From: Owenia fusiformis | Lineage: Eukaryota; Annelida; Polychaeta; Sabellida; Oweniidae | Assembly: GCA_903813345.2 (NCBI GenBank) | Contig: CAIIXF020000009.1 | Coordinates: 30,912,740-30,976,739 of the forward strand | Length of the DNA stretch: 64,000 nucleotides | Direction: 5' to 3' | Shown here: piece by piece, positions 6,601 to 63,500 of the stretch | How the letters are laid out: each line of letters opens with the position of its first letter | Numbering within the stretch: the first letter of the stretch is position 1 | Notes under the pieces: model-generated | Databases searched by the model: none | Told to the model about the DNA's origin: nothing | What the model saw: only the letters and a program-made list of their open reading frames with translations | Position numbers and translations under genes: made by a program

Positions 6601-9106
6601 AAATATAATGAAGATAATCATATGTATATATGTTGAAATATAAACAATTAATAATGTTTTTTTTATGTTTTTTCGATTGTGATCTCCATCTTTCAGATTA
6701 CACAGGGTGAACCAAAAAAGGTAACCCAAACAAATGCTAATAACTGAGTCATTCAGTATACCTTTGAACTCATATTTTGCACAATTAAATTGTTTAATGT
6801 TCTTTCATTCTTCCAAGTATTATTGGTCTATTTCCAATGGTTATGATTTTACAAAACATACTCCAAATTCAGTCTCAACTCTAGAGGCAAACTACAAGGT
6901 GTACGGTAAAGTTGTTCAATACACGCTCCACACATCTTCGCATGACATCACAGAGTCTCATAAAATCATGAACAGCATTCAGCCAGGAGGGGGTTCGATG
7001 GTGTGATCCACCCCCCCCCCATAACCAATGAAAATATGAGCATGATAGGGGAAGAGAAGAGCCTTAAAATGATCTTTATTTGAAGCTTCTAGGTCAATTT
7101 TGAAGGAAGTTACATACATTTGTGTAAATTCAAAACAAATCTTACACGTTTTCTAGAATTTTTTTCATGGCCTGAGTTCGTCGCTAACATGCTAAATATA
7201 AGAGTTAGCTGACGTTTGGGAGTCTGACTTACCTTCTAAAGGTTAGAACCCGAATCTTAATGAAACCATATCACCTTTGTTCTGTCAACCATGGAGCATT
7301 TGCCACAACATCCAAGAGGTAAATCATGGACCGTGAAAATGAATGATTTCCTTGTAAGTTCCGGAAGTTTCAATACGAAAAATTACCGAATGTATGTGAA
7401 AACCGAATATTTGTTCGTTGTTTTCATGATTTACAGGTTCGTTTGTTCTTCAATGTTTTGGTCTAAATTATAAAGCATCACCAACAGGTCTTACTCTATT
7501 AATCGACCAATACAGCAGACGGCTCATATTTCTACGTAGCATTTCGTTCAGACCAATAGTGGGAGTGTAGATCACGCAGTTACGTTCGTTGCGTACTTCA
7601 CTTGAAATTGGTAATTTTAAATATTGGCTACTTCACTTAGATTGGCGGATGTAGAACATTGCTTAATATTCTTTTAATTTTCACACCAGACATGCTTGGT
7701 TGACACGTCAACAATGTAAAGTTCAAGGGTCAATGCGTTATTTCGTGATAACTACAACGCCTTCCCGGAAGTCAACATTGATGAAAAAGTCGGAAAAGCA
7801 TTTACACTAATTTCTATCAAATGCTGTGTTTATGCATCATCATCGACGCAACAAAGGTGATATGGTTTCATTAAGATTCGGGTTCTAACCTTTAGAAGGT
7901 AAGTCAGACTCCCAAACGTCAGCTAACTCTTATATTTAGCATGTTAGCGACGAACTCGGCCATGAAAACAATTCTAATGATCTAATTATGTTATATATTC
8001 GTATTTTTCATTTTTTGGTACCAGGTTTTTTCGACCGGGTACCGGGTACCAAGTTTGTACCCAGCATGGAGGATTTACTACCTGGTAGGGGAAGTCGTCC
8101 TATCATCGCACGGGTACTCAGGGAAACTACTGACGATTTCAAATATGATAACTTCGACTTACTTTGAGAATATGAGACGAAAGATCAACATTTCCTCTAA
8201 AATCTAAGTAGTGTTTGACATTTCTCAATCTCCGAACGCAAACACTTTAAGACCCCTTAGACTCGCATGTGCGGTGGTCCTAATTATCGCACAGTCGTCC
8301 TAATTATCGCACAGTTATGTTTCAGATGTCATTTCACGATACTGTATACATTTCTCTGTTTATAACAGATACATACATATGCTGTAATCATTTTTCTATC
8401 AGTTTTAGTGTAAAATATCAACAAAATATACATTATACACTTACTTTTCTGTCTTTATTTGGAGGGGGTCAAAATTTGTCAGACGAATTTCACTTCTTGC
8501 GCAAAAGCATTTATGACAATGGCGGAAGTTAACAATTTTTTAAAAAATGAAGAGATATTTCAAAATATATGAATAAATCATGAAGATTGGGAGTAATGGT
8601 GTTGAACTGTTTTTCGTAACACTGGTTTAAAAGATGGTGGGTGAATATTTTAGCTATTTAGGACAATCGTGCGATAATTAGGACCGTGCGATAATTAGGA
8701 CCACTTCCCCTACCCATTTTTTTCTACAAACCCCACATCTTTGGTCTGATGGCATCTGGTTTTTACTTATTCATATATTCATGGGGTTTCATGTGAAAGG
8801 TCTGTTGTTTTAGTTCAATTATTTGGAGCTTGCACTGACCACACCCAACTTGAAAGTGAAAGTGTGTTGAAATCCTGGTTAGACTACCTGCGTTGTCAAA
8901 AGTGAATGTCTTAATTTTTTCAATGATGCTTCTAGCTTAAAATGAGTCCATAATGAACGGTAGGCTTAAATATTGAACTCTAATAGTTAACGAATACAAA
9001 GGGTATTTAGCTTACCTGCTTGTGCCACTGGAGCAGTCCGAATACCGTCAAAAATGCCTATTAAAAGACAGAGTAGGAAATATCGACGTAAATGTTTGGC
9101 TGCCAT
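1..9106 (-). CDS. Secreted low-complexity repeat protein (3' end beyond window)
   Basis: I assemble four minus-strand exons with consistent phase: 9106-9016, 4828-4205, 2853-2806 and 880 to beyond position 1. Exon 1 starts MAAKHLRRYFLLCLLIGIFD and continues to a probable cleavage after IRTA, a typical signal peptide. Exon 2 is acidic (D/E/N-rich, with three YLQGTGPGE-like units) and then carries NPNPGVP-type units. Exon 3 adds 16 residues. Exon 4 opens with a Ser/Thr-rich stretch with two NIT glycosylation sequons, then about 13 copies of a 16-residue Gln/Gly/Ser/Thr repeat running off the window. No folded domain or transmembrane helix is visible. The composition suggests an extracellular matrix, mucus or mineral-associated protein, but that is inference; I do not recognise the family. 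The exon 2 donor (gtagac) is weak, so that junction is least certain. The gene is head-to-head with NDUFAB1. Confidence 0.75.
881..2805 (-). other. Intron 3 of the secreted repeat protein gene
   Basis: AT-rich intron between exons 3 and 4. Positions 1440-1740 hold a degenerate array of phrases such as acagggtaac, gattattac and aggtaacaa, the remains of a short-period tandem repeat. Positions 2490-2530 (gccttttagggcc followed by AT-rich sequence) resemble a LINE 3' end, only weakly. No other gene was seen. Confidence 0.5.
2854..4204 (-). other. Intron 2 of the secreted repeat protein gene
   Basis: AT-rich intron of 1.35 kb. I see no recognisable gene or mobile element in it; the short open frames on both strands have no family features. 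Confidence 0.5.
4205..4828 (-). repeat. Coding repeats in exon 2: acidic YLQGTGPGE units and NPNP units
   Basis: Read on the minus strand, the first part holds three units of YLQGTGPGE or YIQGIGPGE followed by D/E/N-rich spacers (roughly 4800-4610). The second part (roughly 4520-4270) holds about ten units of the form NPNPGVP, N-N-P-G-x or NPEV. Both are internal amplifications, distinct in sequence from the 16-residue array of exon 4. Confidence 0.8.
5885..5915. promoter_or_regulatory. Promoter-like E-box and ETS site cluster
   Basis: CACGTGAC (5893-5900) is followed at once by CTTCCGG (5906-5912). USF/TFE-type E-box plus ETS motifs often mark TATA-less promoters. The patch is less AT-rich than its surroundings but lies inside an intron with no exon recognised next to it. 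It may be an alternative promoter, a non-coding transcript start, or chance. Confidence 0.25.
7154..7976. mobile_element. 820-bp TIR element with TA target duplication
   Basis: Inverted arms of about 130 bp run from TA|GAATT at 7154 to AATTC|TA at 7976. Each arm holds the matching phrases gagttcgtcgctaacatg, aaggttagaacccgaatc and gaaaccatatcacctttgt or their complement. The arms are nearly identical, so the insertion is recent. The 550-bp core has no transposase. This is a non-autonomous cut-and-paste element; the TA flank suggests the Tc1/mariner superfamily. Confidence 0.8.
8086..8712. mobile_element. 622-bp TA-flanked non-autonomous element, copy 1
   Basis: TA, then GGGGAAGTCGTCCTA at the left, and TAGGACCACTTCCCC, then TA at the right. 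Near both ends the phrase gtcctaattatcgcac is repeated two to three times. There is no transposase; the only open frame (8317-8532, 71 residues) is also present in copy 2 and has no recognised domain. Copy 2 at 47251-47876 is inverted and almost identical over its full length. Confidence 0.88.
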
Positions 9107-9331: not shown

Positions 9332-16314
<6,983 letters not shown>

Positions 16315-35800: not shown

Positions 35801-38800
35801 AATGCATTACCTGGTTATCTTCTAGTGTCTCTATGGCCTCTTCACTTGCACGCAGCATTGTGATCTGTGTACGTGGATGCTTATCATGTTCAAACTCCAT
35901 TGTGGACCATGTAACATCAAGTTCCTTAAGGACCTTCTCCATGGACATTTCTTTAACTGCCTTATCCACAATGTCATGCACCGTGTCTTCATACTCGTGC
36001 AAGTTCAGTGACATAAGATCTTTCAATGTTGTGCTCTCATCCATAGTGAATTTCACCTGTGAAATAGAGCATGTTACATGTGATTTCATTTTAAACTCTA
36101 AACTAGCTAAAAGTTTTTCATGACATAGAATCGATTCCATTTTAAGGTAATATATTCAGATATCTTTCATTACTTTGATTTTGTTTGTACATAATTAAAT
36201 GAGCCAAAAGTGCAGCTAGAGCTTAAAATATTATTAAACTGTTTATGGAATAAATTGTGTATGTTGATAATTCAAGGCATATCTACTTACCCCTGTGGCC
36301 TGCATAAGCTGCATCCAATGTCTATCTCTAATGGCAGGGTTCTGTAGTTCACTGACAGCTCTCAAAGATGTCAACATATTCTTCACTTGGTTCTCTACCC
36401 CTGAGTAGGAGTCCCATGCCCTCATCTCCTTATCCAGACTCCTGATGTCCTTAGCAAACTTCTTGCAGTCCATTTCCATCTGTTCTACATTGATTTCCAG
36501 CCAAGGGGTCTTTTCCCAATCTTCAATACTTGAGCGTACAATGAAGACGTAATCCCAGAGGGACTTGAGAAGACGTGCTTCCCGCCTGCATTGTTTGATT
36601 GCTTTGTAGTCAGGCACATTGACCTCAAACAGACTAGCTGATTCTAAGAGGGCCGCCATTTCTTTCTCCATGCCAAGCAGAATAAGATGCTGGACATCTA
36701 GCTCATCATACGGAGTTTCACAGGAGTATTGGAATGCACTAATCTTGCGGAATTTCTCGCGATATTCATGTTGTTGAACATCAAATGAGGCGCATTTACG
36801 GCGAATATTGTTCACTTCATTAGCCTGTAGTGGTGCCACCTGTTGTTTGACTGTGATGTGTATCTTCTTTGTGTTGTTCCATTGTTCGGGTAGCTCTTGA
36901 AGCTGTTGATGGACATCATCAGGAAGCTCCTGTTCGTATTGTCTCAAAAGCTCAATGGTCTGTTTCAATGGTTCAAACATCTCATCAGTTGAAGCTTGAC
37001 GTTCTTTGACAGCCATTAGATAACCCATAGTTCCTACAAGACCGTCATAGTCTCCCTCTTCTACAGGAGTGGTCAAACCAGCATCTGTCACCTTGATGAA
37101 CTCTTGGAGGTCATTCAAACTAGAAGAAATTACATAAGTCACATTATCATATGAAAAACAGCCCACGAGGTAACGTCTACATCGTTGTTGGTTATCATCA
37201 ATGAAAAGCCTTTGTTTGTACATGTTTAGTATTGGGTTATTTCTTGAAAACTTTTTTACAAAATTGACTCACATTATCCAGTATATGGAATATTATAAAG
37301 AAATTGACAAACATAAAAATTTTGATTTTAGCCACTTTTTTCTGAAAGTACATACCTGTTGGTAACATGATCAACCAAGTGCTGCTTGAACATGTAGCCC
37401 CAGCGTCTGATAATGTTGATGAGACTGGCCTTGAAGCCCTTGGAGTCCACACGGAACCATTTATCAAATGTATGGGTACTTTCAAACTGGTCGACCTCCT
37501 CATAGATCTTCTCATATGTATCAACCTAGATTGGACAAAAGATCCAAATGTATTTTCTCATTGGAGCAACAAATTAAAGGTTGTTTTTAATGTTTTTCAT
37601 GCATTTACAAAAAAAATATTGAAATAATGTTGCTATTGTAAACATCTGGTTTTTACTCTCATGGTAAAAGGTTGATTATATATTTAAAATAACCTTTTGG
37701 TTGATTGGGTTTACCAAGCTTCAAGTTCTGGAATATTCAACTCATTCATTCTATAGCTCTAGTTCAGTTGACAAACAATATATTCATTGTATTTGTGTAT
37801 TTACCTGTTCTTTGAACTGTTCCAAGGTTGGTGGACTCTCTGGAACGCCATCCTCAGCGTGTGCTTCAATCTCCTCTGTGGTTAACACATGGTTGTAGAG
37901 AAGGAACTGACGCATGAACTCATTGCGATCATCCACCCAGAGATAGGCGTAACTGTCAAATGAGTTGCGATACTCACAAGCTTTGTTCATTACATTCTGG
38001 ACCTTGTCCATCAGTTCTTGGCGCATCTCAGATAGTTCTTCCATGTCTTCAAGGTCAGGCTGGGAAAAGATGAACATATTAAGGTTTTATTTGAATCATT
38101 GTGTGCATGCTGTATGATGTAGAACGTAGATGTGATTGGTTGGACTGATTAAGCCTTGAAATTCTGACATCAACATTATACTGTTAAATTATTTAAATTT
38201 TTTTAATATTCAATGAAATGGAAAAGAATTAAGTGGAACGAAACAGAAAATGATGAATTAAATAACCTCACGATAGCTAATTTATTTTAATTAATTTTAA
38301 TTAATCTAATTTATAACCATGCACTTCATGAATGTTATCCAAATTTTTACCTGATAGTGACTCTGTCCACTGTGACTGGCCAGTCTTTCAATGAGGGATG
38401 CTTGCTTATAGATATCACCAACAAGACCATCCACAAGATCATAAAAGCCATCAGCAACACCATAATCCAGTGATGGCTTGAAAACCATCTCAGGAGCCTG
38501 TCAAGAAATAATGTATTAAGTTAAGTTTGATACAGTTACATACAATAAAACCTGTCTAATTCAAAAGCCTCTGAGACCAGCTAAAAGTGTTGCGATAAGT
38601 ATGACATGTTCACATTTCAAGGTTTTATAAACATGTAAGTAAATGGGAGACAAATTTCGGACTGGTAAAAAGTGTTCACATTGAAAGCTGTTCAGATTTG
38701 AGAGTTGTTCAGATATACAGGTTTCACTGTACATCCTGCATGTCTAGAAAACTGTAAGTAAAAGGCACAATGAATCAACATTACATGACATTCCAGTAGT

Positions 38801-44800: not shown

Positions 44801-47800
44801 ATCCAGAGGGAGAACACTGTTTCCATATGTGTGCAAAATAATTGTTCTGATATAAATCATCATACCTGCAACCACATCTCTGAAGATGTTCTTAAAGGAT
44901 GGGAAGTAGCTGCTCTGTGTTCTCTCCAAAAGTTCAGCCATTTTACGCACTTTGGGATCTCGTAACTACAACAATGAAAGTTTTTTAATTAATGGACACT
45001 GTATGCTGTGTAGATAACTGTTCATGTAGAGAAGTACATTTACTTGAGAATGTTTTTAAACTGTGTTATTACTCAATACACTCAGTGGATAGATTATTTT
45101 CAAGATTCAGCATTTTGCTTTTGAAATTGATAGCAGTAGAATCTGTGTTGACAGCGGAAACATCAAAACCAGAAGAGAAGAAAATGCAATCATATTTTAA
45201 TGATGATATCTAATGAATTCATGAAAAAGTTTCCACTTGCTGCATGTTCTGTACAGAAATGGCACATACCTGATCATAAATGCATTCAAGATTCTGAGCC
45301 TTTGCTTTCCAGAAGTTCAACTCTACAAAGGGTGATGGATTAAGTCCCTCAAGGAGTGGCTGAGCAGAGTCTCTCTTGAGGACATCTCTTATCTGGTGGG
45401 TCCAATCAATAATGACTGATTCAATTGCATGCACCAAGTTTCTGTCACATGTATCTTCCCTACAATTTGTAAAATATCTGATTACTATATTTTAGATCAT
45501 AGCTTTTGGATTGTAACAACCCTGCAAGAAACAGCACTGCCACCCTAGTTTCAGTTTAGATAGCTGATAGTTCAGTCGATAGAGCATCTGACTTTGGATC
45601 TGAGGGTTTAAGATTTGATTATAACACAGGGTGTTTAATTCACACACTTTCTTTCAAATACATATCTAGCTTGTTGCACTATGCTAGGAGGAGGTACGTC
45701 TCGGGTTATTAGTTTTTTATGAGAATGATTATGAAATATGTGTACCTCAATGATTCATGGTTAGTCTTTTTATTTACCTAATAGATGCATTTGTAAAATG
45801 TAATTTAGCTTGACAGTGATACATAAGGGTTATGTACTGGGAGGTTTTGGATATGGGTTTATCCAGAGGGAGATATGCATATCTACCTGAGAGACCGTAG
45901 GGACCGAAGGTAGATATGCATATCACGAGGGATGAACCCAATATCCAAACCGACCGTACATAACTGCTTTATCCTATACCAAGTAGAGTTTTCAGGTGCA
46001 TATGGCCATTTCAATAGTACAAGGTGTAAAAACAATCAAATCATTCATATGCAAAGTCATTTTATTGCATTTCCACTACTTACCGGAAGCGGGAAGATAT
46101 GCACCGAAGCGGGAAGATATGCACCGAAGCGGGAGATATGGCGGGAAATATGGAGGTTCTGGATATGGAAACCTCATAATCAGGATACGGGATATATCTT
46201 ACCAACTTATCTCCCTAAAACTCTACTTGGCATAGAATAAATTTGTGTATGCATTTGCAAATGTCATTTACAGCCACAAAATTCTTACTTTTCAGCTACT
46301 TCTTCCACTTTCTCTGTACCAACAGGTAGAGGTAATAAAGTTTTCCCCTTCACTTGTCCTGCAACAACATAGACGCTGCTCTTCAAGTTATGTACATGGC
46401 GTAATACATCTGCTGATACAACATTAGGCCATTGCTCATGATTTCTCTCATTTGACAACAGTGGAACTAAAACCTGTAAGTAGATCAACGAGTCACTGTA
46501 CTAAGGTTCATTAAATGCATGCAACGGTCACAATATAGTATAATGATGATCTTAAAATAAAATCAACTACTCTCGAAGGAAATGTAAGTTGTCACTTGTT
46601 ATATTTTGTGACTGGAATTCCCTACAAAACTACCCTGCTCATCACCTAAAATTTCCTGATTTTGAGAGAATATGTTTGAGAAACAATAAAAGGTCAGTGA
46701 GGCAAATTAGAAGGCAGTGTCAAATTACTTTAGAAGTAGATTTTGAACTGCGAAGTGTAGACATGACTTCAAAATCACCAAAATGTCGAGTGACATTTTA
46801 CATTTCCTCCAACCTTAGAATAGCAACTTTGTTGTGTTTTACTGGTACATGTAAGCTATTGACAAATCTCCTGTTTTCTGAGTTGACAGGGAGAAACATC
46901 ATGACATGTTTTAGTTGTTGGAGATAGACATGGTACAATCAGAGACAAAAATTCAAATTTATTAGCTTTATTGTATTTCAATCCCCATCAGGGGTCATAT
47001 ACAAAGCATACAACTAACTACAAACTACTTAAGTACAAAAAAGACATGTTGCCATTCCCATCTTCTACTACATTGTATTCCCTAAGCTAAATCTTTTGAT
47101 TTCATAGTCAAAAATGCCAATTGTATATTTTGACGCCTGACAGCAACGGGGTGCAAATAGATTACCTTTAAGGATGGAGATCGTTAAAAAATTATAATGG
47201 TATTTCATACAAGCAACATGTACAGTGTAAAGTATTGCCGTGTCTAGGCCTAGGGGAAGTGGTCCTAATTATCGCACGGTCCTAATTATCGCACGATTGT
47301 CCTAAATAGCTAAAATATGCACCCACCATCTTTTAAACCAGTGTTACGAAAAACAGTTCAACACCATTACTCCCAATCTTCATGATTTATTCATATATTT
47401 AGAAATATCTCTTCATTTTTTAAGAATTGTTAACTTCCGCCATTGTCATAAATGCTTTTGCGCAAGAAGTGAAATTCGTCTGACAAATTTTGACCCCCTC
47501 CAAATAAAGACAGAAAAGTAAGTGTATAATGTATATTTTGTTGATATTTTACACTAAAACTGATAGAAAAATGATTACAGCATATGTATGTATCTGTTAT
47601 AAACAGAGAAATGTATACAGTATCGTGAAATGACATCTGAAACATAACTGTGCGATAATTAGGACGACTGTGCGATAATTAGGACCACCGCACATGCGAG
47701 TCTAAGGGGTCTTAAAGTGTTAGCGTTCGGAGATTGAGAAATGTCAAACACTACTTAGATTTTAGAGGAAAGGTTGATCTTTCGTCTCATATTCTTAAAG

Positions 47801-48246
47801 TAAGTTGAAGTTATCATATTTGAAATCATCAGTAGTTTCCCTGAGTACCCGTGCGATGATAGGACGACTTCCCCTACCTCATCTGTAAGCGCTGCAAGCT
47901 GATCCATGGGTGAGTATGCAAGATCACCATACATCATAGCAGTTCTGTAGTTTGCATCTTTTCCAAGAGCAGCCTCTTTTTTGACAAAATAGCATGCTTT
48001 TGATTTTACTTGCTGCGGCCATTCATGTTGAATTGATAACATTCCTGCAGAATTTGCGATGACAATCAAAATGTGAATATCATTCTTTTCGAAGAAGTCA
48101 AAGAACATCTGTTTATTCTCATCTAAGCTGTACATTTTGGAGAACTTGTCACCTTTAATGCGCAATGTTTTGAGGACATATTCAGCTATAAACTCGACGC
48201 GGGTGTCCCCCAAATCGAGTTCTTTTACATCCACCACAAAAGCCAT
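20487..48246 (-). CDS. DNAH9: Axonemal outer-arm dynein heavy chain (DNAH9/11/17 group)
   Basis: I splice 39 minus-strand exons from ATG at 48246 to TAG at 20487. The exon lengths sum to 13,419 nt, an exact multiple of three, giving 4472 residues; family members are about 4460-4520. All parts are present: tail, linker, six AAA units with P-loops in AAA1-AAA4, antiparallel stalk with microtubule-binding domain, and C-terminal domain ending GGVALLLQV. The AAA1 P-loop [16 protein letters not shown] and the C-terminal [19 protein letters not shown] place it with outer-arm beta heavy chains rather than DNAH5/8 or inner-arm types. Assignment among DNAH9, DNAH11 and DNAH17 needs a tree; overall similarity looks closest to DNAH9. 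The protein hydrolyses ATP to slide doublet microtubules in cilia and flagella. The gene appears intact, with no internal stops. A transposon lies at the exon 1 splice donor. Confidence 0.95.
22277..23256 (-). other. Dynein intron 36, 980 bp
   Basis: Largest intron in the 3' half of the dynein gene. I see no gene, hairpin or transposon end in it. The other 3'-half introns (100-420 bp) are likewise unremarkable AT-rich spacers. Confidence 0.5.
24233..27369 (-). CDS. Dynein exons 32-34: stalk, microtubule-binding domain, AAA5-6 (3068-3943)
   Basis: Exons 27369-27109, 26915-26772 and 26455-24233. Exon 32 is the first coiled-coil strand ([20 protein letters not shown]). Exon 33 and the start of exon 34 are the microtubule-binding domain ([35 protein letters not shown]). 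Exon 34 continues with the second coiled-coil strand, [23 protein letters not shown]5 with [20 protein letters not shown], and part of AAA6 with [20 protein letters not shown]. The 2.2-kb exon is the longest in the gene. Confidence 0.95.
27792..30800 (-). CDS. Dynein exons 27-31: AAA3 and AAA4 (residues 2377-3067)
   Basis: Exons 30800-30530, 30337-30129, 29922-29515, 29185-29024 and 28811-27792. The AAA3 P-loop GNAGTGKT (about 2465-2472) is split by an intron after GNAG. Then come [29 protein letters not shown] and [17 protein letters not shown]4 P-loop GVGGSGKQ at about 2810-2817, followed by [19 protein letters not shown] and [15 protein letters not shown]. The end of exon 31 ([19 protein letters not shown]) begins the stalk. 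Confidence 0.95.
31078..33744 (-). CDS. Dynein exons 22-26: AAA1 and AAA2 (residues 1838-2377)
   Basis: Exons 33744-33581, 33227-32545, 32402-32192, 31951-31675 and 31360-31078. AAA1 P-loop GPAGTGKT at about 1857-1864, then QMDYKSIG, Walker B-like [10 protein letters not shown] and sensor-type [18 protein letters not shown]: the main ATPase site. AAA2 P-loop GNAGTGKS at about 2138-2145, followed by [20 protein letters not shown] and LASNERIPL. Every key residue is present, so the motor should be active. Confidence 0.95.
34155..37119 (-). CDS. Dynein exons 18-21: linker, into AAA1 (residues 1105-1838)
   Basis: Exons 37119-36291, 36056-35811, 35591-34761 and 34447-34155. Conserved linker phrases include [62 protein letters not shown] and [20 protein letters not shown]. 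Exon 21 enters AAA1 with [17 protein letters not shown]. The linker performs the power stroke over the AAA ring. All phrases are intact. Confidence 0.93.
37356..48246 (-). CDS. Dynein exons 1-17: N-terminal tail (residues 1-1105)
   Basis: Exons (high-low): 48246-47878, 46473-46289, 45459-45270, 44965-44866, 44487-44276, 44135-43905, 43592-43425, 43085-42969, 42784-42634, 42335-42221, 41767-41572, 41296-41026, 40679-40432, 40228-40040, 38497-38351, 38059-37805, 37525-37356. This is the DHC_N1 tail that binds intermediate chains and docks the motor on the A-tubule. Recognisable blocks are [10 protein letters not shown] (exon 2), [10 protein letters not shown] (exon 5), NLSQPLL-like NLAQPLLQR (exon 11) and [11 protein letters not shown] (exon 17). 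The first 120 residues are the least conserved, as in the family. Two larger introns (45460-46288 and 38498-40039) carry repeats. Confidence 0.9.
38541..38731. repeat. ACCTGTCT-family element, about 190 bp
   Basis: aaaacctgtctaattc at the left and ACAGGTTTCACTGTA at the right form imperfect inverted ends. Inside are two or three units of the form gtgttcacat or agttgttcag. Members also occur at 19768-19890, 54249-54315 and 62261-62320. It lies in dynein intron 14. Confidence 0.65.
39401..39861. mobile_element. 453-bp MITE with TTAA flanks in dynein intron 14
   Basis: TTAA|GGATGCAGTACCAGGTC at 39401 and GACCCGGTACTGCATCC|TTAA at 39861: inverted ends of 17 bp with one mismatch, flanked by TTAA on both sides. 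A TA target with ends AGGATGC would also fit. No coding capacity. The end resembles AGGTGCAGTGGTAC of the 12894-14222 element. Confidence 0.7.
45561..45625 (+). repeat. tRNA-like fragment (possible SINE head)
   Basis: TAGTTCAGTCGATAGAGCAT fits a tRNA D-arm / A-box, and ctgactttggatctgagggt sits where the anticodon arm should be. The B-box position reads gggtttaagatttg, a decayed GGTTCGAATCC. The stems do not close well, so it is a decayed tRNA or tRNA-derived SINE rather than a working gene. It lies in dynein intron 2. Confidence 0.35.
45829..46234. repeat. Compound hairpin element with 20-bp tandem units
   Basis: 45829-45964 is a palindrome: GTTATGTACTGGGAGGTTTT pairs with its diverged complement ending GTACATAAC, and around the centre AGATATGCATATCTACC pairs with GGTAGATATGCATATC. 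Next, TATACCAAGTAGAGTTTT (45975-45992) pairs with AAAACTCTACTTGGCATA (46217-46234). Between them are 2.5 units of AAGCGGGAAGATATGCACCG. Probably two hairpin elements side by side or one complex foldback, in dynein intron 2. Confidence 0.65.
46474..47250 (-). other. Rest of dynein intron 1
   Basis: AT-rich. At 46950-47000, tttattgtatttcaatcccc followed by atcaggggtcat resembles the 3' end of some LINEs, without any protein remnant. No gene seen. Confidence 0.4.
47251..47876. mobile_element. 622-bp TA-flanked non-autonomous element, copy 2, at a splice donor
   Basis: TA|GGGGAAGTGGTCCTAATTAT at 47251 and ACGACTTCCCC|TA at 47876. It is inverted relative to copy 1 (8086-8712) and nearly identical to it. 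The right TA (47875-47876) includes the T of the GT donor of dynein exon 1, whose last base is 47878. The minus-strand donor therefore reads GAG|GTA and then element sequence GGGGAAG. Confidence 0.9.
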
Positions 48247-48550: not shown

Positions 48551-51500
48551 ATGGTGGTCAGATTGAAACTTGGATTTCGTCTGCTTCGCTGTAATTTGTC
48601 CTATAAAACAAGGTACGTAATCTCTCAAAACTCCTTATATTATTACATAAGATGGCCTAACATTGATTCGCAGAAGAAATGAAGAGTGATTGATTGATTG
48701 AGATTCAGCACTTTGCTTAGGCCTACATAGTTCAACAAAGTTAACCCTAAGTCTCTGGGCCTTATTTCTTATCTGACATACCTTGTGGCCCACGACTATG
48801 TTTAACTTTGTTGAACAAGGCAAACTTATGAATCTCAATCACTCACCGTGAACATGTATAAAATCGAGTCAATTTTGTAATACATGTTCCTGGGCCTATG
48901 CACTCATCACTGCAAAAATAATGTCTCTGGGCCACGGATAGTGGGAAGTCCTCCATCTAGGAGGTATATATATACAAGGTAATGTTAGTAAAAATTAAAA
49001 AAATATGGTCACCTGTCCTCTAGATTCAATTTTTGAATGAATCGTAGCATAATGTACAGATTATTTGATATCATGCTATTCTTGAAACATTTATATGCAA
49101 AAATAACTGGGTCACTCACCTCTTATGCCTATATGTGTTTAGTAATCATACCCATTAGTGTACCTATAAGGACTTAGAAATTTTTCGAAAAGGGTAAATT
49201 AGAATTCCAGGATTATTCTTACATAATATGAATCTTTAAGAAGTATATTTTCAACAAATCACAAAAATAATATTTAGAATATGGTAAAAAGTTGTTTTTT
49301 ACAGTGATTCTTAACACATGTCATTCTGACTCTTAAAATGAGTAATTTTCACATATTTTCACAATTCCTTGAATAAAATCTTGATTTTTGTAGATACACT
49401 TAAATTGACTTGTCAATATAAAACTACATTGTGTCTGAGAATAATAACCTTCACTAAGCAGATCAACCATGCATAGATACTTTGTAATCCTATTGTTTTG
49501 AAAGGCACCCTATTGTGTTCTTGTTTTTAAGAATGGATGACCTTCTACAGTCACTGACAGATTGAGGTGCTTCCGCAGGTCAGACCCCCTCTGATTTCAC
49601 CTTTATTGTTTAGTATTGGCATTATTGCATAGTTCAAACATGAAATGAGAGAGGGTCCTGGCTGCGGAAGATATACAATGTGAAAGTATAGCAAAAAATT
49701 TTGTTTCAAAAAAGAGGCCATATTGGATCTGCCATACACCAAGGCAACAAACTATCAGACAAGTATCAAATGGGTCAATTTATTTTTGATTTATCAGTCA
49801 CGCATGCCTCTGAAGAGGATACGTTGCAGAGGGACTGAATTGATATCCATTTAGTCATTAAAGGGACACTGTTTGTAAGGTAGTTCTCATGCTAATGAAC
49901 ACTAAAATGTTTTAAACAACGAATCAAATGGGTCAATCTTCTTTTGATTCATCAGTCATGTCTATCTCTTGAGATGATATGTGGAAGAGACACTGAATTA
50001 ATATCCATTTAGCAATTAAAGGGACACTCCTTGTAAGGTAGTTCTCACCTTAGGAAACAAATAGGCCAATCTATCTTTGATCGATCATTCATGCATGCCC
50101 CTGAAGATGATATATTGCAGAGGGACTGAGTCATTATCCATTCAGCCATTTAAAGAGACATTGCTTGTAAGATAGTTCTCATCCTAATGAACACTAAACT
50201 ATTTTTTAACAAAGAATCAAAGGGTCAATATACTTTCGATTCATCAGTCATCCCTGCCCCTGAATGTGATATATTGCTGAGGGACTGAATCAATAACCAT
50301 TTACCCATTTAAAGAGACACTGCTTGTAAGGTAGTTCTCAACTAATGGGTCAATCTATTTTTGATTCTTCATTCAATTGCTTACCCCTGAAGATGATATA
50401 TTGCTGAGGGACTAAATCAATATCCATGTAGCTGTTTAAAGAGACCCTGCTTGCAAGGTAGTTCTCACCAAAAGAAACAAAAGGGTCAATTTATTTTTGA
50501 TGCCTGTCCCAAAAGATGATACATGTATATTGCTGAAAGACGGAATCAATATCCATTTAGCCATTAAAGGGACACTGCTTGTAAGATAGTTCTCATCTTA
50601 AGTCAAACTAAAATATTTTACTACATAATAATTATATGTTATACAATGGATAGATTAAAATACCTCCACTTGTTTGATAGCAAAACAATGGGTTTCAAAC
50701 TGACGAAAAAACTATCCTACATGCACCTTTTCAATTTTAAAAGGCAACCATTTGACTTTGTACCTTTAGCTTCAATTGAATTATTCTTTGAAAATGCCAA
50801 ATAAATATATCATATATTGGAAAGTCACAACTAGATTTTTAATATTTGAGTTGAATACCTAGGTTTTGTGTTTTCAATATGTTGCCCTTTGTGTCCTACC
50901 TTTGATAATGATATTTAATATGTCCTCTAAATTGAATATCCTAGGTTAAACCTACTGTATACCAACTGAGGTGATACTTTTGCTGAGATTCAAGATTAAG
51001 ATTCATAGCTATATTACATTTTAGGGGTTGTTTTATGATTTGTGTTTCCAATATATTGCCCTTTGTGTTCTACCTTAATGATATTTTGATATATTGATTG
51101 ATTCAATGGTCAATATACTTAAAATTGTCATGAGTGAAGACTGACATACCTCTAACATGATATTTAGAATGATTTGCATAGTCAAACTTAAATGCACCGA
51201 ATGACCTTAGTTTTAATCCCTATGACCTAATTTTGTTTTGGATGTGTTCATAATTTATAAAAGTAACTATTTCCATGTTATATTCAATGAAACCTTTGGG
51301 GGCACCTTTAGGTACATGGGGTAACGGATCCTTTCTCCAGCCCATTGAAGGGTCCTCTCCGTAAATTGACAATTTCTACTGCGCATGTGTAAAACACTGG
51401 ACGAAATGGTTTGGTAAATTTCAAACTATTTGATTGGTCGAAAAAATCACGCGCCTTTGCGTGATTTGCTTTATTCTCGCGAGATGGTGCGTGATTTGCT

Positions 51501-54500
51501 TTATTCTCGCGAGATACGGCGCTCTGTCCCCTTAAATTTTTATTTTGAACAACCATTATGATTTGGTGCATTATCTGACCAATAAAGCAGATTTGGAGGT
51601 ATGAGTATTTTTTTTATTTTTCTGTTTAGTGTTTTCTACAGGCCCTATGTGTCTCAGGATATTTGTTTAACGAAAACTAGACAAATAATTTATTTTAAAA
51701 ATAAATATTTTTTATTTTGGATGGAAGATGCGTAACCTGAGAAATAATATAATAGTAATATATGGAGGACTTCCCGTAACCATGCTCTGGGCCTTATTAA
51801 AGTAGCGGAAGGCGATAATTTACTGATGATTTTTGTTTTGTAAATACCTTCAGTTCATATGCCTAGAATCAAAACACTTATTCTAGTGACCAGTTCATAT
51901 GGTTGAAATAATGAAATAATGAAGTGTTACCATGTGTCTACTTACCAGCTTGTTCTATGTCATCCATCCTGCTAGGTTACATTGTGGCACGCAGCCAAAC
52001 ACGACAATGAAGGCAACAACATAACAATATTGATCTTAGCAGAATTTTTGGAAATTTAGATCGTCCATTTTGCAAGCTCACGTGACTGATCACTAGTGTT
52101 GTCGCGATTAATCGATACATCACGATATACATAGCCAAAGCCGATTCTGGCGATGCATCAATGTCTGAAACAAAACATTAATGTTTTAAAAAAAATTAAT
52201 TTGCTAAAAATCACCCTTTCATATCTTATTTTGACGCAAAGCGCTTACCTTTCTCATGTCTTATTTCATTTTCCAATGTTTTCTGATAATCTTTTCCTTT
52301 AAAACTGTTTTAGCTAGTCGAAGTGAACCATTAATCCAAAAAAATTACTTTACTTTCATTTCACCGTACCGTTACTAGAAGTTCCCGGATGTACCAGCGT
52401 ACTCTTATTAATTTGTTCTGTTCGGTATTTTAGTGCATTCAAGCGTCGAAATCATTCAAAATCAATCTTTTTTAATTATAAAGAGTTATTTGATCACACA
52501 TGACGCAAATAGCATAAAAGTATAAAGGTTTTAAAAGACTGATTTTGACTCATCAAAAATATTACATTTATAAACATCATTATTTAAAGATTTCAGTAAT
52601 GAATTAAATTATATCTTAAACTGTTCCAATATTCTTAATAGTTTGAAAGTTTATTGCTTTCACCTCCAACATAGCAAAATACCTCTGATTTATATTGAAT
52701 ATAACTGGGTCCAAGTTAACTAGGGTCCGAGTTGACTAGGGTCCGAGTTAACTAGGGTCTGAGTTAACTGGGGTCCGAGTTGACTAGGCTTCGAGTTAAC
52801 TAGGGTCCGAGTTGACCAGATACCTCTGCAATCACTAGTAATCAAATGACTCAAATTGTCTCTGATTATCTCTTGCTCTCAGTAATTGTGTGTCTCTATC
52901 TATCTCTCTCTCTGCTCCGTCTATCTTCTAGCGCATAATACATTGCAAATTACCCCCTAAATGTTGATTTTTCGAATCACCCCCACAATTACTTCTTATT
53001 AAAAATGCAAATGCACAGTGAAACCAGTGTATTGAACATTATTATCCCATCGAACGAAGTTCGGAGGGATATAGGGAATGCCTCCGTCCGTCCGTCCGTA
53101 CGTCCGTCCGTCCGTACGTCCGTCCCTACGTCCGTCCGTACGTCCGTCCGTCCGTCCGAGCAATAACTCAAATACCGTTGGCCCGATTTTGTTCATATTT
53201 TGTACACATATACCCTATGGGGGTAGAAGTTCTGCTCAATAGCAGATTTTCAAAATGGCCGCTCATTTAAAAATGGCGGCCATTTTAGTGACGATTTTAC
53301 AGTAATTTAGGTGCAATATGTAAAACTGCAATAGCAATATGTTTTAAATGTAAAAAAATTATAAAGGACATTAATAATGCTACAAATGTAGATATTAATT
53401 TAATTAAAGAAGCACATGGCAGCCATCTTGAAAAATGGCGGCCTTTACTCGTCATTTTACGATTTTTGCTGTAACTCAAAAAATAGTGGAGCGATTTTGT
53501 TCATACTTGGTATGTGAATACTATAAGAATTGCACACTGTCTAAAGACACTTTTGGTAGAACTTGGAACATTTTAATGTATTTTACAATAACTCGAAAAG
53601 TAGTGGAGCGATTTTGTTCATATTTGGTATGTGAATACTATAAGCATGGCACACTGTCTATTTCTAATGACACTTTTGGTAGAAGGCGGCCATTTTGAAA
53701 ACAATTTTGAAAAATGGCCGCCATTTTAACGTATTTCACTATAATTCGAAAAGTAGTGGAGTGATTTTGTTCATATTTGGTATGTGAATACTATAAGCAT
53801 GGCACACTGTCTAATTCTAATGACGCTTTTGGTAGAAGGTGGCCATTTTGAAAAATGGCCGCCATTTTAACGTATTTTACTATAACTCGAAAAGTAGTGG
53901 AGCGATTTTGTTCATATTTGATATGTGAATACTTTAAGCATGGCACATTGTCTAATATAACTTTGGGGAGTAGTCGTTTTCAAAATGGCCACCATTTTTA
54001 TGTGTGTTATTTTACAAGTACACTTGCGATTTTTCAAAAATTTTAGAGGTGGCTACTTAAAAGCATATTATTTTTTCTGATGACAACTTGGCTAGTGAGC
54101 AACCATTTTGAAAATGGTGGCCTTTCTGGTGTTTTGTTTTATGATATTTGCGCTTCGTTTGTAAAAATGCCAGCTATTTCTGTTCGATGGGATTCGCTAC
54201 GCTTTGGCGTTGCCGTTGTTCTGGTTTGCAGAGAAAAAATATTCAGTGAAGGGTGTTTACTAGAGACAGATGTTCACTAGAGAGAGAGGTGTTCACTAAG
54301 ACAGGTTTCACTGTATTGTCAAATTTAATACGAGCATCCCTTATTTTCATTGTAAATCTTACCAAAGGTGAGATTGTTGGATCCATATTACATTTTCCTT
54401 ATTTTTTACAATATCTTTACAAATAATATTTCGAAAATGATCTTGTCCCAATCACTTATCTGAAGATTTAAAATGAAACTAGTAATAACTGAATTTCTTC

Positions 54501-57500: not shown

Positions 57501-60500
57501 CATTTTCCATCAAACTTGGCCCAACTACTATCAGGCGGATGTCCTTGAAAAATCAAGTTGACATGGTTACCAAAACCTAATAGTTGCCATGGCAACCATA
57601 GAAATGGGCTAAAAAAGATAGCAAAAAAGCACCCAAACCCACCATAATGGCACTAATTTATAAAATATTTCTAGATATACAAATTTTCTTAAACTTTGAT
57701 ATCATCTAGAACACTTGTCAAAATATTTGGGGGTAGGTTTACCACTTCGATTTTTTTCTAGGCTTGGTCAAAGTAAAACTACGAAAAAGCACTAATTTTA
57801 CTTTTGAATCACCTATTATCGCCCAAATGGCTATTATATTTTTTCAAGGTCAAGGTCGCCATGCTAAAAGTTGAATTACGGAGATAAATCTGCTCTTCAG
57901 ACAATGTTTGATAGCTTTTCTTCACCACAAAACAAAGATCTTTGCGCTGGTATGCCAATTTCCATGAGATAATGTATGGGAAGGAGGAACTGTGTCTTTA
58001 AATGTCATCAAAACTTTATGCCAACACGTGAAAAGGCTATTTTCGCACTACTTTTGGTGTAATAATGCCATCGAACAAACATTCCAATTCACCCATGTTC
58101 GGTAATATAAGGTGTTATTACGGTAAATACCACTTCCGGGTGTTTTTTAAAACTTTAAAAACGAAGCTATGCCAACTTCAATGGTGTGTATAGTAGGTTT
58201 AAGTGTATGTACTGTGGGCATTTGAGGTATGTATGTAAAGCAGGGGCCAAGTTCTTTTTAAATGTGCCATTTTTAGAAAAAAATCTCAAGAATATGGTCC
58301 CGTAAACAGGAACTACTTTATTCGTTAATTTTCATCGGTGAAGCAGAGATTTTACCTAGAAATAAGTCCCTATGTTGGCGTAGTGATATTTAAAAATCGA
58401 GACCCAAACCCTATGTTAAATATAGTGTCGAGATGAAGGTTATATATAGTGGATTGCAGAAATATAGTCATTGTATGGGCTAATTCGTTCGAAAATGGCG
58501 ATATGTACCCCAGAAGGTGTGAGTACCGTAATCCAACACCAAATTCGAAAATTCAGAACAATACTTTACACATATGGCGTTCGTGATCAACTATAAAACG
58601 CTTACCCCCCATAGTGTTAGATATCAAAATGTACCTGTTCATATAGGGGTTCGATTGATCTACATCAAATTATAGGGAGTCCGGTTACTTTTTGAGATAT
58701 CAGCGTCCATTTATTGTAACTCACGTTTGCTACCATTTCCTCAATTCTGAAATGACAGGCAACGCGTAGTAAACATGCTCACGCCGGAACTATATTTTGA
58801 CCTACATCGCTATTTTCGTAATTTAAATGAAAGTTGAACTCCTCCTCTATATTTTGATACAAAATAGTGGCATACTAGGTACCTAGAAGTCAACTATGGC
58901 GTTATTTAGTACAAAACCACGAGTTTTTGGCGGGTGGATATGGAACCTCATACCAGAACTTGAATTTTGTGATTTTTTTCAATATTTTTCAATGATTTAC
59001 CGTAGTGACACCCTAACGTATCATAACTTCCGGAATGACATGCCTTTCGGAAAATTTTTGGGAATATTTTCACTTCATTTACATTTCTTGTATAACTGTC
59101 CTTATTGTTGATTGGACGGAAAGATAAGCTGATGTAGTTACACTAGAGTTCGTTTACTACCATTTGGAAGGCACGTGAGGGTCCCATTCATCAGGTAACA
59201 CTCATATGTCGAAGTTATGTTCTTGCTATTTTCTCTAAATCAGAGGTCGAAGGGTTTTTCAATAAAATATATTCCAAAAATTCTTGACACCCAGTAAGTC
59301 GTAGGGTCGAAGGGTCGTAGGTCGAAGGGTTTTTAGTACATTCCGTTCTGTACAGATATTTTGATTGAGCAGGGAATTCATTGGCAACATGCCATTTGTA
59401 CCCAAATATCCTATTTTGAGGGATTTTGAACTAACATTATAATACAATATTCAATAATTCTGTCATATTGTCAGTTTTTTTTTATTAGAAATTCAGTTTT
59501 GTAAGTTATGTAGGGAAGTGAAGTATTTAGAGGTTTGTCACTATGACAATTTGACAATATAGGCCGACCTTGGGAGGCTCTATATTTGAGCAAGAACAAA
59601 TGCATATTTCATGTCATAGTGACATAACTGATGTATTACATACCTTTATCCCCATGGTTACTTTGTATCAATGACGTCACACATCTGTGTCTGAGTAGAA
59701 TTTGATCGAAATCAGACATGACGCCGTGATTTTGTTATGGTTATTAAAGAAATCTAATATCTATGGGGCTATATCAGGGTGATCGCACTGATCGGGCAAT
59801 ATCGGTGGATATCGCCTGCTAACTTTCCCATTGACTTCCATACAAATTCTTTGCTTGATATGTATGTAATACAGTGTAACACAGTGTAGATCATACATGG
59901 TGTGTGATTGGTGTGTGCTTCATGGCTCGGTTGATGGTTGATGTTGTTTCAAATTGCTATTTAGTTGGCAACTTTTTCTGTTTCCAGGACAATGTTTCTA
60001 AAGCACAACACAGAATTGTTATTGCCTCTCTGTATCTTGGGTCTGGGCACTTGGAACAGGAACTGGTAGGTGCAAAGACTTGTAAGAGACTTTTAGAGAC
60101 ATTAAATGTAGTCCCATTATATCTATGGGTGATAAATATGTCTTTGATTGATCATCAGCCATGATCTATAATCAGCAATGATCTCATAATTAACCAATGA
60201 TGCATACATAGTTCATAATCAGTACTGAATTGGTGATCAGCCTGTGATTGGTTATCATCCAATCATTTATAACAATGTTTCATTCTGCGAGTTGTACATT
60301 TCAGATTGATTGTATATACAAAGCAAGTCAACTATCCAAGGAGAACAATGGAAATCTGAAAGTTGATATTCTACTAGACCACACCCGAGGCTCTCGAGGG
60401 AAAGTGAACTCACGAACAATGTTACTTCCTCTTCTACAAGACTTTGAGAATGTGTCAGTTGCTTTGTATCACACGCCTGATCTGAGGGGCTGGTTAAGGC

Positions 60501-63500
60501 GGGTCATGCCAGAGAAATTCAATGAGACGATAGGTCTGCAACATATGAAAATCTACTTGTTTGATGATACTCTCATTATTAGTGGGTAGGTTGAGTCAGA
60601 AGAATTTTAGAAAATGAAAGTTATATTTGAGGGGATGAGTGACTGAAAGTAAGATAAGTTATTAGGCCTCTGACAGTACTGAAATTTTTCTGTTCTGTTT
60701 GCTTTTTGAGCGTTTTTTCATAAAAACTTTCCAAAGATCTGAACAAATCAATTTTAAGCAAATATGTATAGAAAGGGGCAAAAATATCCTAGGGTCGAAG
60801 ACACTAGTATCTGTAAATGATGGTTAAATGTTTTTGTTTATTCAAGCTGCAAACCTTGATATTTATTATAAAAATCCAGTGCTGTGTAGATATTCTGGTG
60901 TACTTCTACCTCTTTCTTATCACTTGTTCACTTGCATACTATTTGAAATTTGGTTTAATATAGAGTTCAAAATAGTCACTCTTATAATTGTATTGTACAT
61001 TTGCTCATGTACAAAGCTTAAGTACAATTATGCTAAAACTGTAAATAACAAATGGTTTCTTTTGTATTTTTAGAGCCAACTTAAGTAACGACTACTTCAG
61101 CAATAGACAAGATAGATACGTCATGTTGGAGAATTGTAAAGATTTGTCAGACTTCTATAGTAACCTCATACAGACAACCTCAACATTCTCCATGCAGCTG
61201 CAACCAGACAACTCAGAGAAACTCTCACAAGACTTCCCCTATCATCCATATAAAGGTTTGTTTCAGCATCCTGGTTCCTGCGCTCTGTTCAGGATTTTTG
61301 GTTTCTGTAACTTTTTCTGCCCTTTTCCAAAGTAGAAGAAATAATAAAAGATACAAACATCAAAAGTTTTGATGTTATATTAAATCAGGTGTAAAAATGT
61401 CATTGGAGGGTAATGCAAATAAATATATTAAAAGCTTACTTTCAGATAGAGATGGAGGTAAAAAGTTCAAAGCAGAGGCTAAGCAGCGAATAGATAATCT
61501 AATACATCAGTACATGCAGAGTGAGCCGCCAGGAGTTCCCTCTGCAAGCGGAGATATGCCCCAAAAACACAACACATCCCCAGAAGTGAAAAATGTACTC
61601 TTTGAGACAATTAGGTCATACACCACAGGAGTCAATCCAAATACTATTCCAACAGACTTAAATCCATCAATGCAGAATATACATGCAAATCAACAAAATG
61701 ATCATATAGGCAATCATGTTGATCCAAAGGACCACAAAAGTTGTATACAAAATAAAAAGACAAAAGAAGACACTCCTGATACATGGGTATTTCCCTTGAT
61801 CCAGATGGGTCAGCTTGGAGTTTTTATGGATAATTATGTGACTGAGGGGCTGCTGGTTTCAGCTCCTGACGCATCTAATCTCCATCTGACATCTGGATAC
61901 TTCAACCTAACTGATGAATACCTTAATACTATACTACTGAATTCCAAGGCAGATTATGATATTCTCATGGCTCACCCAGAGGTAGGTATTTTCTTTGTGC
62001 TCCGATAAATCCTGGCATCTTTTGATACATCAGAGAAACTTTAATATATTGGCTAGCTTGCCATTGGTTGTATTTTTCATTTAAAATTCGCAATAAGTTA
62101 ATCCTGTTGTGCATGGTCAGATTTCTTCCTACAACCAATGACATCATCATAGCCATTATCATAGTTTTTGTATTAAAAGGTACAAGGATTTATCGGAACG
62201 ATCTATTACAAACTAATGACACTTGACTGCCTTTTAAACACAATGGACACAACACGGAGGAAGGGTGTTGCACTAGAGAGAGGTGTTCACTAGAGAAAGG
62301 TGTTCACTAAGACAGGTTTTCATTTATTTCCAGGCCAATGGTTTTTTCACTGCAAGAGGTATATTAGGAGCCATACCTCCTGCTTATACCAGGATAGCCA
62401 AACTCTTCAATGATAGACTAATACAACACAAACAAGAGAACAGGATAAAACTTTGTGAATATTTCCGTAAAGACTGGACTTTCCATTCAAAAGGTCTCTG
62501 GTATTACTTGCCTGGTGATAAACTTCCTGTACTCACTCTCATAGGATCTCCAAATTTTGGTGAGTAATGCTTCTTAGAATGTACTAGTTTGGTTTCTTTA
62601 ACATTGTTAATTGTCCAAAGTTTTTTGTGGCGGGTGTTTGGAGGTTGGTGTTTGTGAATGAGTTTGCTGATGAACTGGGAGTATGAACTCCCTATTTTTA
62701 GTCACAAGAAATGTCAATGATAGAAAAATAAAGAAACTCTCAACATTACAAATTAACTTTGAAGAACTTTCCAAAGGTTAGTTTATTCAATATATATCAT
62801 TCATTAATGATAATAAAATTTGAAATGATCTCTTTGTTTGATTTTCGAAAACCTAATGGGCATATCATTTATTATATGTACTACAGTGAACATTTTTCTT
62901 GTATCTACAGGCTACAGATCTGTGTATAGAGACCTGGAGAGTCAACTAGCTATAGTCACTGAGAACCAAGAGTTAAGGCAACAATTACATCTGGTATGTT
63001 TAAAACACTACAATCAACATTAACTGGAATTTTCCTTTTCATTTCTCAAATCTTTCTCCAATATAGCCAGATCAATTGTGAAATAATAATTTGTTTGTGA
63101 AATAAAGAGTGAAGTTTCCACATATCAGTTGACAGCATTCCCTATGATTTAAGAGGCAGAGCCAACTTATGATCCATGGGAAGGATGTAAACATTGCAAT
63201 AACCCCCTCTCCCTGACAAATATGAGTTAAATTGCATGTTTTCTCCAAATAAGGTCATGAATAACTTGTAGTTTCAAGCCATAACCAACCATATCATAAA
63301 GCAAACCCATTTCAAAATCACTCCAAATCTGTCAAGCAATTTTAGATTAAAACTAAAATATATTATATTAAGATATGTTTTATTGTATACCTTCAGGAGC
63401 AGCAGAAGTTATACAGCTTGTCCACACCAGTCAATGCTGAGACATTTAGACAACCAGATAGATATGTACCAATGTGGATTCGTTTAGTCATCAGGGTCAT

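Follow-up and report, generated by a model that had tools for sequence, protein, structure and literature searches.

In a 64,000-nucleotide stretch of the annelid Owenia fusiformis (contig CAIIXF020000009.1, positions 30,912,740 to 30,976,739; hereafter the window), a gene for an outer-arm beta dynein heavy chain carries a short inverted-repeat transposon whose end lies inside the 5' splice site of the first coding exon. With a probability of about 0.85, we read this as a tolerated insertion of an element resembling a miniature inverted-repeat transposable element (MITE): a TA target duplication and the GGGG terminus of the element would have rebuilt the donor, leaving the event close to neutral. 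The features concerned are the following (window coordinates; a slash within a motif marks the exon border).

20487-48246, minus strand: dynein heavy chain coding region, our own ab initio model
47878-48246, minus strand: exon 1, the first coding exon, 123 codons, ATG at 48246, ending GAT GAG
47872-47880, minus strand: 5' splice site GAG/GTAGGG, host bases as far as +1, then the TA copy (+2/+3), the element starting at +4
46289-46473, minus strand: exon 2, starting VLVPLL
47251-47876, minus strand: copy 1 of a non-autonomous terminal-inverted-repeat element, 626 bp including both TA; element proper 47253-47874
47875-47876: left TA, putative target-site duplication; T is donor +2, A is donor +3
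47251-47252: right TA, putative target-site duplication
47849-47876, minus strand: imperfect terminal inverted repeat at the left end, some 28 nt with the TA
47251-47279, plus strand: imperfect terminal inverted repeat at the right end, some 28 nt with the TA
47647-47686, minus strand: left subterminal GTCCTAATTATCGCAC doublet, 20-nt spacing
47261-47294, plus strand: right GTCCTAATTATCGCAC doublet, 17-nt spacing, its outer unit inside the terminal repeat
8086-8712, plus strand: copy 2 of the element, full-length, about 12 kb downstream of the dynein coding region

On the minus strand exon 1 is followed by GTAGGGGAAGTCGTCC. Base by base, GAG occupies 47880-47878, GT 47877-47876 and TA 47876-47875, and the element continues with GGGGAAG from 47874, exactly as a preliminary description of this sequence had placed them. 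From donor +2/+3 onwards the element fills the first ~44% of intron 1 (626 of 1404 bases). With the element removed, the joined flanks read GAGGTAGGCCTAGAC; taking out the element and one TA gives GAG/GTAGGCC as the presumed empty site, the ancestral donor already proposed in that description, against GAG/GTAGGGG in the occupied one. The same description held that the insertion had replaced positions +4 to +6. The element does supply these three bases, but +4 and +5 are G in both states and only +6 differs, C having become G. Neither letter is consensus there: the gene's own preference is T (20 of 38 donors).

A material change of the donor, which the preliminary description had implied, does not emerge from the comparison. 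Scored with a position matrix built from the other 37 donors, the occupied site reaches 5.23 (leave-one-out rank 24 of 38) and the presumed empty site 5.02. Predicted pairing with U1 amounts to -9.8 kcal/mol (11th best of 38) and -9.3 kcal/mol, respectively, so that the occupied donor is marginally the better of the two on both measures; predicted accessibility, treated below, is equal in equal context. A 44-intron second-round draft of the gene, dropped because it contained zero-length exons, gave 5.30 occupied and 5.09 empty (rank 29 of 44), with 2.5% of the gene's GT dinucleotides scoring as high. Donors of the gene model were selected by consensus frequencies, a choice expected to bias the other donors upward and the rank of intron 1 downward.

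Not every donor would have fared so well. Placing GGG in silico at +4 to +6 of the 28 GTA donors in the gene lowers the score of 21 but not of the other 7, and the ancestral intron 1 donor belongs to the latter. The insertion is thus among the few that would be tolerated, and no more than survivorship is needed to account for it. Counting the TA, copy 1 and copy 2 agree in all 48 bases at the donor end, and thus no change of the donor after insertion is seen. Over the gene span we count 1996 TA sites, 28 of which coincide with donor +2/+3 by the gene model; roughly 1.4% of random TA insertions in the gene would therefore hit a donor, and with many genomic copies such landings would be expected.

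The mobile nature of the element follows from its second full-length copy, which lies between unrelated flanks. The preliminary description had called the element a transposon, and had named a lack of similar repeats elsewhere as what would speak against it; copy 2 removes this objection, being 98.6% identical to copy 1 end to end (627 columns, with 8 substitutions and one single-base gap). Copy 1 is flanked as GAGG-TA...TA-GGCC and copy 2 as CCTGG-TA...TA-CCCAT: on the right the identity of the copies ends at the TA, while on the left the GG before the TA is common to both (629 columns). The right end of copy 1 reads CACTTCCCC, then TA (47252-47251), then GGCC. Its inverted ends, TAGGGGAAGTCGTCCTA and TAGGGGAAGTGGTCCTA, are 94% complementary over 17 nt, and the terminal repeats pair to about 28 nt (89.7% over 29 columns, 47849-47876 with 47251-47279). 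Allowing up to 3 mismatches, TAGGGGAAGTSGTCCTA has four matches in the window, all of them exact and all at element ends, where 0.05 were expected; none of 100 shuffles reaches four. At the same threshold the 16-mer GTCCTAATTATCGCAC matches nine times against 0.27 expected. Eight of these matches are exact and lie within the two copies, four per copy, as a doublet on each side; the ninth, with 3 mismatches, is at 38590. The transcript strand of the element folds more stably than its shuffles (z -5.39, 0 of 20 as stable), which is expected because of the inverted repeats. In both copies some 160 bp (47687-47848) lie between the left inverted repeat and the doublet belonging to it, whereas on the right the doublet sits directly at the end; an old insertion may be present in the left arm.

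The longest stop-free stretch of the element in six frames is only 82 codons, and it is not the one in the dynein frame (39 codons). The element thus lacks a transposase-sized reading frame, and we take it as non-autonomous by this length criterion only, no family search being part of it. Terminal inverted repeats, near-identical copies with the same ends and the absence of a transposase-length frame are the marks of a MITE. TA is present at four of four element ends (two copies, the empty site being reconstructed) and appears to behave as the target duplication that the preliminary description had suggested. The element itself would be new but of a known kind, behaving, as far as its sequence tells, like a MITE with TA duplication. 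From its TA the element may be Tc1/mariner-like. The similarity of the copies suggests that the insertion is fairly young, perhaps still polymorphic.

Tc1/mariner-derived and Stowaway-like MITEs are likewise short and devoid of transposase, with inverted termini, TA on both sides and near-identical copies. What sets the present element apart from known TA-duplicating MITEs is its GGGGAAGTSGTCC terminus and its 16-mer doublets, described here from 2 copies in a 64-kb window. In Sclerotinia, six MITEs of 481-813 nt are reported to derive from mariner families (PMC4188875), and MITE-like elements in introns are described in clam genes (PMC4732748). ISL2EU elements (PHIS superfamily) share a two-base A/T duplication, but duplicate AT within A/AT/T (PMC4482050); we rejected this identity, as our element has GG/TA/GG and GG/TA/CC. 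In the literature, of which we had a partial view, we found no report of this element or of a MITE so placed. An exact search of viral and prokaryote contig collections with the 16-mer doublet gave 0 matches in each, as expected for an animal element and with no bearing on its spread among animals. Inverted-repeat transposons can also be removed from messenger RNA, by SOS splicing.

The host gene is identified by similarity to solved dyneins as a DNAH17/DNAH9-class outer-arm beta heavy chain, both a similar N-terminal tail and a dynein C-terminal domain having been found. The protein of exons 1 and 2 (185 residues) matched 9 solved sequences, the best being DNAH17 (4.5e-40) and DNAH9 (5.1e-22), followed by outer-arm beta heavy chains and a pair of sequences named putative dynein heavy chains. 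Another 487 residues matched 28 solved dyneins, led by DNAH17 (its residues 279-763, 3e-148) and DNAH9 (2.9e-134). DNAH17 is thus ahead of DNAH9, the two being the closest solved matches, in both N-terminal stretches; this is a similarity ranking and not a tree, and between DNAH17 and DNAH9/11 the assignment holds at class level only. Two of 10 window proteins matched Pfam, both C-terminal dynein pieces (Dynein_C, AAA_lid_11). The 185-residue N-terminal piece had no Pfam match, so that its identity comes from the solved-structure search.

The ab initio model comprises 39 coding exons, 38 introns and 4472 residues with 0 internal stops, and keeps the introns of round one, except that the initial one gave way to the initial two of round two. 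It is approximate: the comparison with homologues covers two N-terminal stretches and two C-terminal pieces. The acceptor of exon 2 is CTACTTACAG/GTTTTAG at 46473, in phase 0. The resulting DE/VLVPLL junction is gap-free in all five displayed alignments (of 9 solved sequences matched); in two of them a single-residue gap follows, 7 and 9 residues past it. On this alignment evidence the join is right, and with it the donor, both as put forward in the preliminary description.

We propose the following course of events. A TA-duplicating, Tc1/mariner-like cut-and-paste transposase would have inserted the element into a donor already present, GAG/GTAGGC, at its TA. Through duplication of the TA, T(+2) and A(+3) would stay next to the exon, and +4 to +6 would come from the GGGG end of the element. 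The resulting donor, GAG/GTAGGG, should be about as strong as the earlier GAG/GTAGGC; recognition by U1 would be kept, the whole element would leave with intron 1 and the dynein protein would be unaltered. The insertion would have been tolerated because the TA duplication and the GGGG terminus remake the donor, and would have survived because it is close to neutral. Under TA duplication, the empty allele is expected to read GAGGTAGGCCTAG, GAGGTAGGCC, and an orthologous empty site to contain GAGGTAGGC.

Several points weigh against this explanation. The empty site is reconstructed from the flanks. The score model is small, with 37 other donors themselves picked by a consensus-based model. Two copies cannot separate TA duplication from a TA owned by the element, a case which leaves the ancestor without GT. 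Neither a transposase nor an autonomous partner is seen, and the superfamily is read from the TA only. The remaining objections come from predicted folding of the pre-mRNA, in which the cost of opening the intron 1 donor is 12.05 kcal/mol (777 bases), the most closed of 38 (median 4.1). Once the last 40 nt at the far end of the element are omitted, it drops to 7.76 kcal/mol. Such a closed fold, relieved in this way, could mean poorer use of the donor.

These predictions are the basis of the first rival, which we consider unlikely: the element weakens splicing, its paired ends hiding donor positions +2 to +18, with some retention of intron 1 and a truncated 163-residue product. In the predicted stem the far end of the element pairs with +2 to +18, apart from a mismatch at +12; pairing probabilities are 0.59 at +2, 0.92 at +3, 0.95-1.0 over +4 to +17 (except +12) and 0.77 at +18. 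Opening positions -3 to +6 costs 5.0-8.5 kcal/mol with 30-600 intron bases made, before the far end is transcribed, and 13.4-13.5 kcal/mol with 640 or 700. However, the presumed empty site is equally closed at the same context length (12.0 kcal/mol against 12.05 occupied), though it opens more easily when the context is shortened to 277 nt (9.01 kcal/mol), and for its equal closure we demoted donor sequestration to a rival. Moreover, U1 can bind early, as some 600 nt are transcribed between the donor and the far end, and little weight can be given to equilibrium folds of 900 nt. Were intron 1 retained, the frame would run 40 codons past exon 1 (one over GTA, 39 in the element) to a TAA at 47757-47755. 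The length and stop given in the preliminary description thus hold, but its "tail fragment" falls short of the product, in which 123 dynein residues are joined to 40 intron-encoded ones.

Less probable still is that the TA belongs to the element, the target not being duplicated, and that the element itself made the GT donor. In each copy a TA stands at either end and GG precedes the left one, so that two copies do not suffice to place the boundary. The ancestor would then be GAGGGGCC, without GT at the exon end, yet dynein homologues align gap-free through the junction; TA duplication is, besides, a common pattern. An introner-like event, in which the insertion made intron 1, is hardly credible: the intron begins at the element edge, and introner target duplications supply splice sites in several ways, some contributing to the 5' splice site as here (PMC9860276), but introners create the intron, whereas our element lies inside a longer one with 777 non-element bases before exon 2 and an acceptor outside the element.

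The remainder of the window holds other repeats and one further gene candidate. Inverted arms of 146 bp (7154-7299 and 7832-7976, 93.8% identical, about 530 bp apart) end some 110 bp before copy 2 and look like another inverted-repeat element. An open reading frame at 13511-14222, with no Pfam match, has a cysteine/histidine C-terminal motif, which we take to resemble the tail of a long interspersed nuclear element (LINE) reverse transcriptase; part of it (13969-14222) matches 12894-13151 in inverted orientation (261 columns, 87%). At 6-659 lies a tandem array of 13.6 copies of a 48-bp unit, with open frames on both strands (193-480, 197-484). Upstream of the dynein gene, 49761-50620 and 53422-54009 are diverged local duplications (69-80% identical). 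Reading-frame pieces at 60248-61335 on the plus strand weakly match CDP-alcohol phosphatidyltransferase of the phospholipase D type, with 3 phosphatidylserine synthase matches (best 0.00016); they look PGS1-like, PGS1 being the neighbour of DNAH17 in human, and the pair may be an old linkage. Scans of the window with Rfam (gathering threshold) and for tRNA found nothing.

GG precedes the left TA in both copies, compared with 3.5% of all TAs in the window (7.5% when TAs followed by CC are counted too). A GG-TA target taste is thereby suggested, from two sites and noticed afterwards. That a family preferring GG-TA, with a GGGG end, remakes donors at G/GTA and shows an excess of copies at intron +2/+3 genome-wide is a long shot. 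If true, the joint effect of target taste and terminus would be that insertion into splice donors is tolerated.

We regard the case as neat but not extraordinary, as the splice signal, judged by its letters, looks unharmed, and an insertion in intron 1 says little on the dynein itself. It offers a clean natural example of a DNA transposon very near a splice donor without visible breakage. Altogether, a rule emerges as to which donors tolerate GGG at +4 to +6, and it can be counted genome-wide.

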